From contig NZ_AP025487.1 in assembly GCF_024347475.1 (NCBI RefSeq), forward strand, positions 2,852,001 to 2,916,000: a stretch of 64,000 bases of DNA. The letters run 5' to 3'. A program made the translations under genes and the position numbers. Shown here piece after piece: positions 42,168 through 46,836 of the stretch. Source of the DNA: Vibrio fortis (lineage in GTDB: Bacteria > Pseudomonadota > Gammaproteobacteria > Enterobacterales > Vibrionaceae). Positions within the stretch are counted from its first letter, which is position 1; every line of letters begins with the position of its first letter. The notes beneath the pieces are model-generated. The model was not told the DNA's origin. It ran no database searches and was given only the letters and a program-made list of their open reading frames with translations.

Positions 42168-42884
42168 ATGAAACCTTCTATTTTAGCCGCTGTTATCGGC
42201 ATGACTGTATCTGCTACCGCTATCGCTGATGATCACTTCCGTTCTCATGATGCTCACGTTCACGGAGCGGTTGAAGTCAATATCGCTCAAGATGGCAACG
42301 AGCTTTTGGTTGAAGTAACCGCTCCAGGTGCTGATGTTGTTGGTTTTGAGCACGCACCTCAGACACCAGAGCAAGTCGCAGCACTAGAAAAAGCAACTGC
42401 GCTACTGAATCAACCAAGTAAGCTATTCATGTTCGAAGGTGCGGATTGTACGCTAGAGTACAAATCTGTAACTCATACCTTGGGTGAAGACGAGCATGAA
42501 GGCCATGATCACGACGACCACAAAGGTCACGACCATGACAAACATGATCATGATGACCACGAAGGGCACGACCATGACAAACATGATCACGATGACCACG
42601 AAGGTCACGACCATGACAAGCATGAGCACCATGACCACGAAGGTCACGACCATGACAAGCATGAGCACCATGACCACGAAGGTCACGACCATGCTGCAGG
42701 TGGGCACGGTGAGTTCACTATTGAATACCATTACCAATGTTCAAACGTGGCTAAATTAGACACAGTTGAGACACAGTGGTTTTCTAACTTTGCCAATACA
42801 GAATCAATCACAGTTAATCTATTAACAGATCGTGTACAGACTCAACAGAAGCTAGCACCAAACAACACTAGCTTCCGTTTCTAA
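42168..42884 (+). CDS. zrgA: ZrgA-type zinc-binding periplasmic protein (DUF2796)
   Basis: 238 aa with a signal peptide (KPSILAAVIGMTVSATAIA). The conserved DUF2796 start is DAHVHGAVEVNIAQDGNELLVEV, and FMFEGADCTLE and FTIEYHYQCSN follow. Residues about 106-178 are a His/Asp-rich array of 13-residue repeats of the type HDHDDHEGHDHDK, encoded by 39-bp DNA repeats. The protein is the zinc-capturing component of the Zur-regulated ZrgABCDE uptake system known from V. cholerae. A 13-bp hairpin follows at 42915-42942 before the ABC genes. Confidence 0.82.
   Translation: MKPSILAAVIGMTVSATAIADDHFRSHDAHVHGAVEVNIAQDGNELLVEVTAPGADVVGFEHAPQTPEQVAALEKATALLNQPSKLFMFEGADCTLEYKSVTHTLGEDEHEGHDHDDHKGHDHDKHDHDDHEGHDHDKHDHDDHEGHDHDKHEHHDHEGHDHDKHEHHDHEGHDHAAGGHGEFTIEYHYQCSNVAKLDTVETQWFSNFANTESITVNLLTDRVQTQQKLAPNNTSFRF
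42504..42695 (+). repeat. 39-bp in-frame tandem repeats encoding a His-rich metal-binding array
   Basis: Five units start at 42504, 42543, 42582, 42621 and 42660 (the last shortened to 36 bp). Units 3 and 4 are nearly identical at DNA level. Each encodes 13 residues with five or more His. Repeat number could change by slippage without breaking the frame. Confidence 0.85.
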
Positions 42885-45027: not shown

Positions 45028-45540
45028 ATGCAGCACAAACTCTTGCTGATCCTTGGGTTGCTTCTTTTTCCGTTTGCGACAACCGCATACGCAGAAGCAC
45101 CATCAACAGAAGAATCCGTCCTTACTTTGGAATGGATTGACCTAATTCCAGAATCGGAACGTGCCCAGCTCGACCCTTTTGGCATGCCAACCGTCGATCA
45201 CAGCCAGGAAAGCCCTCAACAATCTAAACTAGGCGCTGTTCGTCCAGAACTGAATGGCAGCAAAGTAAAGATTCCAGGTTTTGTTATCCCGCTTGAAGGA
45301 GATGAGAATATGATCACCGAGTTTCTACTGGTGCCATATTTCGGAGCATGTATTCACGTTCCGCCACCGCCACCAAACCAGATCATCTATGTGAAGTTTC
45401 CAAAAGGCGCACCGATTCAACAATTGTGGGATGTTATCTATTTAGTGGGAACACTGAAAACAGAAACCATTACGCACGATTTGGCGCAGACTGGCTATCT
45501 AATTGAAGGGGTAGCAATCGAAGAATACGACGATATGTAG
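45028..45540 (+). CDS. DUF3299 periplasmic protein, last gene of the zinc operon
   Basis: 170 aa with a signal peptide (residues 1-22, ending TTAYAEA). The DUF3299 core is KVKIPGFVIPLEGDENMITEFLLVPYFGACIHVPPPPPNQ; the Cys-x-His of GACIH could bind a metal. DUF3299 proteins often accompany FtsX/LolD-like ABC transporters. It follows the permease after 14 bp and is followed by a terminator. Confidence 0.83.
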   Translation: MQHKLLLILGLLLFPFATTAYAEAPSTEESVLTLEWIDLIPESERAQLDPFGMPTVDHSQESPQQSKLGAVRPELNGSKVKIPGFVIPLEGDENMITEFLLVPYFGACIHVPPPPPNQIIYVKFPKGAPIQQLWDVIYLVGTLKTETITHDLAQTGYLIEGVAIEEYDDM

Positions 45541-45656: not shown

Positions 45657-45761
45657 TTAAGCAATATATTTAGACAGATACGCTAGAATAGCGACATAAC
45701 TAACGAGTAATAGTCCGATTGCCAGCTGTTTCTTCAGCTTATTATCATTCACCTGATTCAT
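45657..45761 (-). CDS. 34-aa single-pass membrane protein, too short for standard ORF calling
   Basis: Read on the minus strand from ATG 45761 the product is MNQVNDNKLKKQL then AIGLLLVSYVAILAYL then SKYIA. It has a polar, Lys-containing N-terminus, one 16-18 residue hydrophobic helix and a short tail. The ribosome site AAGGAGGAG, 4 nt from the ATG, is close to perfect anti-16S complement, which is hard to explain by chance. The upstream 160 bp is AT-rich. No function can be assigned; the topology is typical of small regulatory membrane proteins. Confidence 0.65.
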   Translation of the reverse strand: MNQVNDNKLKKQLAIGLLLVSYVAILAYLSKYIA

Positions 45762-45924
45762 AACTCCTCCTTGGATTACACAACAAATTTAACATTTTAT
45801 TATCATCAGAAAAAGTAAATTTTGTTTAATCCTTCAACTTTACTCGTAATATCTAGTCACAAGTTCAATAAAGAGTTACATTTTAACCAGTTAGATTTCT
45901 GTCTTAAGGTTTGTAGGTATCGTT

Positions 45925-46836
45925 ATGTCTGACTCTCAACAACCCGTGATCATTGAACACGTGAATGACACCGCTCCCAAGCAAGAAAAAAAGCCCCATA
46001 TTGCTGACAGCGCCAGTCGCATGCTCAATATCGCCCAGAACTTCGGTTTAGATGCTCTGCTTAGCCCAGGAAGTAAATCGTCAGATAAAGGTGAGAAATC
46101 GCTAATAGAGCGAGCACTGCTGCGAGAAAAGAAGCGTAAAGAGCTACGTCAAAAGAACCTTGAACAGATCCTAAAATTAGCGCACATGTCGTGCAAAGAT
46201 GAAGCAGCTGGCGACCCAGACCAAGACTGGCTGTATCGATTTTTCGACATGGCTCAAGAGATCCATAATAGCTCGATGCAGAGATTGTGGGCTCAAGTGC
46301 TAAAGAGAGAAGTGACCAATCCAGGCTCGACCTCAATGAAGGCACTGAAAATCCTGCAAGATATGACACCTAAAGAGGCACTAACTCTACAACGCGCTGC
46401 TTCGTTAGCATGTAGCTTTGGTAGCGACCATAGCCGCAAGCTATTGCTCGGTTTCAAAACGCAGGCGGGCTTATTCAGTTTTGGTAAAAGAACTGGCGCT
46501 AGCACTATCAATTTGGGCAGCCATAACCTGCCCTATTCAAGCTTATTGCATCTCATTGAGCTCGGTATTCTGCATGGAACAGAATTGGAATCCGGTGAAA
46601 TTGATTTTGACCCAGCACTCAACCTAACCTATCAAGGAAAGCAGATGGCCATTACGCCGCTCTCAAAAGGGGTGAAACTTGTCTATTATCGCTTCAGCCC
46701 AACCGGTAATGAACTGTGTGTGCTGCTCGGAAATAAGCCTAATAGTGCCTATTATGACCAGCTTATTGCGCTGTTAAATCAGAAGTTTACGGTACAGGCC
46801 GAAGCGAAACCTGGCAGCGTAAACCACACCGTATAA
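45925..46836 (+). CDS. TIGR03899-like cytoplasmic protein of unknown function
   Basis: 303 aa without signal peptide or membrane segment. A Lys/Arg/Glu-rich helix (about residues 55-80, LIERALLREKKRKELRQKN) precedes AAGDPDQDWLYRFFDMAQEIHN and MQRLWAQVLKREVTNPGS, the pattern of DUF2806/TIGR03899 proteins of Vibrio and relatives. The C-terminal half is mixed alpha/beta. The start at 45925 follows a G-rich but poor ribosome site. Function is unknown. It is convergent with cysC. Confidence 0.7.
   Translation: MSDSQQPVIIEHVNDTAPKQEKKPHIADSASRMLNIAQNFGLDALLSPGSKSSDKGEKSLIERALLREKKRKELRQKNLEQILKLAHMSCKDEAAGDPDQDWLYRFFDMAQEIHNSSMQRLWAQVLKREVTNPGSTSMKALKILQDMTPKEALTLQRAASLACSFGSDHSRKLLLGFKTQAGLFSFGKRTGASTINLGSHNLPYSSLLHLIELGILHGTELESGEIDFDPALNLTYQGKQMAITPLSKGVKLVYYRFSPTGNELCVLLGNKPNSAYYDQLIALLNQKFTVQAEAKPGSVNHTV

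Follow-up and report, generated by a model that had tools for sequence, protein, structure and literature searches.

In Vibrio fortis, the zinc (zrg) operon and a gene of the TIGR03899/DUF2806 family are separated by a short region in which an ORF of 34 codons can be read on the opposite strand. An initial annotation of the window (the whole 64,000-nt stretch of DNA analysed here) took this ORF for a gene below the usual size cut-offs, encoding a membrane protein, and hinted that the product tunes the neighbouring zinc transporter. The locus hence raises the question of whether such a short ORF is a gene at all, to which of its neighbours it belongs and under which control it is expressed.

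A short gene with a single-span product

The features of the locus are collected in Table 1. The product of the small ORF is MNQVNDNKLKKQLAIGLLLVSYVAILAYLSKYIA (34 aa), and its 3′ side lies about 116 nt past the end of the ZrgA/ABC/DUF3299 operon, opposite and just downstream of it as first described. The near-perfect Shine-Dalgarno (SD) sequence that had been reported, AAGGAGGAG at 45772-45764, has no counterpart ahead of any other membrane ORF of the window. As a chance control, all ATG-initiated ORFs of the 64 kb with a length of 25-60 aa were surveyed. Three of them are preceded by an SD core of five or more bases, and among these the small ORF is the sole one with a hydrophobic segment (mean Kyte-Doolittle value of 2.46, versus 0.14 and 1.14 for the other two).

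Table 1. Features of the small-gene locus (positions in the window).
Feature	Position	Strand	Remarks
DUF3299 protein gene	45028..45540	+	last gene of the zrg operon, convergent with the small gene
Small membrane protein gene	45657..45761	-	34 codons and stop, ATG start
Divergent intergenic region	45762..45924	.	between the small gene and TIGR03899
Shine-Dalgarno AAGGAGGAG	45764..45772	-	direct reading of the sequence; G-rich SD in nearly all relatives
Putative extended -10 TGTTAAATT	45794-45786	-	overlapped by the second half of the ArcA-type box
ArcA-type box TGATAATAAAATGTTAA	45789..45805	-	TGNTAA(N5)TGTTAA; 11/12 core positions
TIGR03899/DUF2806 protein gene	45925..46836	+	divergent neighbour

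In a genus sample of 197 Vibrio genomes, the small ORF was matched in 174 at E<=10 and in 153 at E<=0.01, while the other Vibrionaceae genera carry diverged copies with weaker matches. The gene order (DUF3299> <small TIGR03899>) is identical in 89 of 90 loci, the single exception (L087) being a spurious match. The encoded protein is mostly 34 aa long, with a range of 28-44 aa. In its own frame, the ORF shows a pN/pS of 0.21 among 14 close relatives and of 0.35 among 47 members, whereas the two remaining forward frames give 1.04 and 1.42 (14 close relatives). One reverse frame, with a pN/pS of 0.35, mirrors the coding-frame pattern, as it should since it shares its third positions with the small gene. 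Variability at the three codon positions is 0.22, 0.14 and 0.46, changes occurring mainly at third positions, and the start codon, the SD and the open frame are kept even in relatives with as little as about 35% identity. Frameshifts or stops in close relatives, named in the initial annotation as part of what would refute the gene, were not seen in the relatives that were read, which keep an open frame. With its open frame in relatives, low pN/pS and fixed synteny, the small ORF is a genuine gene under purifying selection.

This bears on the explanation that the DNA is conserved as a regulatory RNA or a promoter, with an ORF present by accident. Conservation does extend upstream of the ORF, as that explanation would have it, but the codon-position pattern, the low pN/pS solely in the coding frame and its mirror, and the persistence of an open frame with start and SD in distant relatives all argue against it, leaving it a probability close to negligible.

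The product is a single-span membrane protein, in agreement with the transmembrane helix first proposed: it has one hydrophobic segment, and its AlphaFold model consists of a single helix (residues 3-33, pLDDT 83). The polar N-terminus also found support, with a net charge of +2.6 over the first 13 residues and of +0.4 over the last 6. In 34 of 36 members, the N-terminus is the more positively charged end, from which the positive-inside rule suggests an N-in topology. Tyr22 is invariant and K11, L18, L26, Y28 and L29 are nearly so; a conserved face of the helix was not significant (662 of 5000 shuffles reach its level). A short and hydrophobic peptide of this kind could also be a type I toxin-like peptide. 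This is very improbable, as the gene occupies one fixed locus genus-wide, evolves under purifying selection (its product has a conserved AYLS-like motif and a Tyr that never varies) and was not found among 72,556 plasmid records.

Searches for a known family gave little. No Pfam or NCBIfam model matches the protein of the window, and a PDB sequence search returned no match, including no chain of any solved complex. A sequence match to small subunits of the CydX type was sought with the same absence from the PDB and with just weak, scattered family matches. Among these, the archaeal SecE model (NF006906) gave weak matches in some relatives (best E 1.3e-5), which were rejected as chance since they reach about 12 to 17 bits, in members inspected singly, for a cut-off of 95. 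PADLOC gave no defence match for the small protein or for TIGR03899.

Inheritance with the divergent neighbour

In nearly all loci read from Vibrionaceae, the small gene adjoins the zrg operon, which would suit the proposal that its product modulates ZrgA/ABC zinc uptake. Co-inheritance however splits the two in both directions. In 15 genomes, most of them read directly, ZrgA is kept while TIGR03899 and a clear small ORF are absent; in the loci of this type that were read, the next gene after DUF3299 is cysC or a uroporphyrinogen methyltransferase-like gene, the latter label coming from a reading of the translation and not from a search. Conversely, a two-contig genome (G141, locus L232) has lost the zrg operon from this locus, with no ZrgA found elsewhere in it, and yet retains the small gene, TIGR03899 and cysC, and in another (G053) the small gene-TIGR03899 pair is kept beside a mere remnant of DUF3299. 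A further genome (G117) is also devoid of ZrgA, its match lying near a contig end, and was not counted. The zinc-uptake link was rejected on this double dissociation, and the DUF3299 gene was judged to lie outside the small-gene system. In addition, the small gene is transcribed separately from the zrg operon, because the two are convergent, and its conserved promoter element is of the ArcA type (see below). A role in zinc uptake, as hinted at in the initial annotation, is thus very unlikely. As a side observation on this operon, a long His/Asp-rich repeat of ZrgA (HDHDKHEHHDHEGHD..., window 42480-42720) splits its family match, and the length of the open frame varies in relatives.

The small gene is instead inherited with TIGR03899. 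A clear small ORF was found in 153 of the 178 Vibrio genomes with TIGR03899 and in none of the 19 without it (Fisher p 1e-14, relatedness ignored), so that a clear small ORF is accompanied by TIGR03899 in all 153 cases. The start-to-start gap between the two genes ranges from 135 to 332 nt in relatives, with a median of 162 nt. No BLAST match to the small ORF (E<=1) was obtained in 30 Vibrionaceae genomes, 19 of which also have no TIGR03899; in 8 of the remaining 11, a diverged single-span ORF occupies the expected site (L092, L096-L102), and three Vibrio loci (L093-L095) have TIGR03899 and no detectable single-span ORF at that site.

Joint deletion of neighbouring genes is an alternative cause of the joint loss of the small gene and TIGR03899; therefore, finding the pair again outside Vibrionaceae, and finding zrg lost by itself, weigh more than the p-value. 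In four further families (f10, f11, f13 and f25), a divergent single-span ORF with the same Y-x4-L core adjoins TIGR03899, and no zrg gene was detected beside the pair in f10, f11 and f25. The order-wide profile search behind these cases was noisy, nearly all weak matches outside Vibrionaceae being due to chance, and only those adjoining TIGR03899 were kept; the profile contained several of the sequences later recovered, and the independent matches are L168 and L170. In several families, TIGR03899 is present in the absence of a detectable small ORF, making the dependence one-way. Overall, the small gene goes with TIGR03899; a partnership between the two proteins is likely, and it may be a physical one.

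Two side observations concern other loci. In genus g47 of family f25, outside Vibrionaceae, zrg-type genes lie near TIGR03899 with no detectable small ORF between them (L160, L162-L164). In a further genome (G116, locus L204, 1495-2389), the TIGR03899 gene is broken into three reading frames next to an intact small ORF and box. Either a pseudogene or an error of the draft assembly could explain the split, and this locus qualifies the rule that no clear small ORF occurs without TIGR03899.

The TIGR03899 protein itself has a confidently predicted fold (pLDDT 89), for which a search against the PDB gave no match below E 0.05 and none that was informative. TIGR03899 was not found in any paper in a literature search. 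Two V. cholerae studies (PMC4014592, PMC9201469) mention VC2556 and VC2557. VC2557, whose number places it near this locus, is given as a pseudogene in PMC9201469; neither gene was equated with the small gene or used as evidence.

An ArcA-type box in the promoter

The aligned upstream regions of the small gene have AAATGATAATAAnTTGTTAAAnTTGTTA in common, whose core TGNTAA(N5)TGTTAA corresponds to the ArcA consensus TGTTAA(N5)TGTTAA (PMC7303359), in which the 11-bp spacing of the repeats forms the core of each ArcA site (PMC3798270). A predicted box scoring at least 11/12 was found in 48 of 50 Vibrio promoters, in 15 of 21 promoters of distant Vibrionaceae and in 6 of 11 from outside Vibrionaceae, for shuffle means of 0.1, 0.07 and 0.02, respectively. 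The best spacer is 5 bases in all three groups; a spacer of 3 is second best because of a third repeat. In reverse orientation, the 5-base spacing never reaches 11, and the box points to the small gene only. Moreover, no box was found within 350 nt at the TIGR03899 loci without small ORF that were examined, including three Vibrio loci, and the box therefore belongs to the small gene.

Four copies of the exact pattern TGWTAA(N5)TGTTAAA are present in the 5.28 Mb genome of the window, one of them in the small-gene promoter. Two others lie between sdhC and gltA and between the malate synthase A (aceB) and glyoxylate carboligase (gcl) genes. The last one (L198, G000:C1:2599409-2599426) stands 5′ of a long-chain acyl-CoA ligase-like gene, for which no NCBIfam model passed its cut-off among the matches listed. 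In E. coli, gltA, sdhCDAB and fadD are repressed by ArcA (PMC3798270). ArcA is encoded in the genome of the window (NF008378, 498 bits for a cut-off of 334), and control of the small gene by ArcA, a point absent from the initial annotation, is likely, judging from its promoter sequence. Only about 27 nt separate the end of the box from the ATG, a distance too small for activation from a site at -35, and the putative extended -10 is overlapped by the second half of the box; repression would hence be expected. As in the ArcA-repressed carbon-oxidation regulon, two TGTTAA-type repeats placed 11 bp apart overlap the promoter, as for occlusion; in contrast to that regulon (PMC3798270), the box of the small gene is a prediction and its product is no carbon-oxidation enzyme.

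A predicted ArcA-type control in common with sdhC/gltA and malate synthase A, together with the small size and single span, would also suit a CydX-like accessory subunit of a membrane-bound oxidase or dehydrogenase in aerobic respiration, with a purely positional link to TIGR03899. This is the main rival explanation. Against it, the small ORF is lost with TIGR03899 in Vibrio that presumably still respire, divergent pairs of this type are seen again in other families, and the protein resembles no chain of a solved complex. We consider such a subunit rather unlikely.

Proposed role and implications

CydX, AcrZ, MgtS and KdpF are small single-span inner-membrane proteins of Gram-negative bacteria, of about 30-50 aa, with one transmembrane helix and a short cytoplasmic tail, and proteins of this kind are usually found just via their conservation and SD site. 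The Vibrio protein shares with them its size, its one helix, a probable short cytoplasmic tail and its recognition from SD and conservation. It differs in that its gene is not beside an oxidase, a pump or a kinase but divergent from a soluble DUF2806 gene, and in its lack of similarity in Pfam, NCBIfam and the PDB. The TIGR03899/DUF2806 family is the conserved genomic partner of the small gene, yet many families carry TIGR03899 with no detectable small ORF.

Taken together, the balance tips slightly towards an ArcA-controlled inner-membrane microprotein of aerobic growth acting with TIGR03899. With a reduced quinone pool, phosphorylated ArcA would cover the core promoter of the small gene and repress it, whereas with ArcA unphosphorylated, during aerobic respiration, the small protein would be made. 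It would be inserted as one helix, containing the conserved L18, Y22, L26, Y28 and L29, with its lysine-rich N-terminus in the cytoplasm, and would probably assist the soluble TIGR03899/DUF2806 protein, the product of the divergent gene. Its most likely action would be to tether TIGR03899 to the inner membrane or to a membrane complex there, or to tune it at that site.

A core but unmodelled gene is added to Vibrionaceae, and its case illustrates how patterns of co-inheritance can set a small protein apart from the adjoining operon that would seem its obvious partner. The conserved ArcA-type box turns a “function unknown” into a testable lead, namely oxygen-dependent expression and respiration, and the pairing offers a first lead on TIGR03899/DUF2806, a family of no known function. 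More speculatively, the two genes may form an undescribed gammaproteobacterial module in which ArcA, via an oxygen-controlled microprotein, switches the location or the activity of TIGR03899. If this tentative proposal were true, the whole DUF2806 family would act at the inner membrane solely during respiration.
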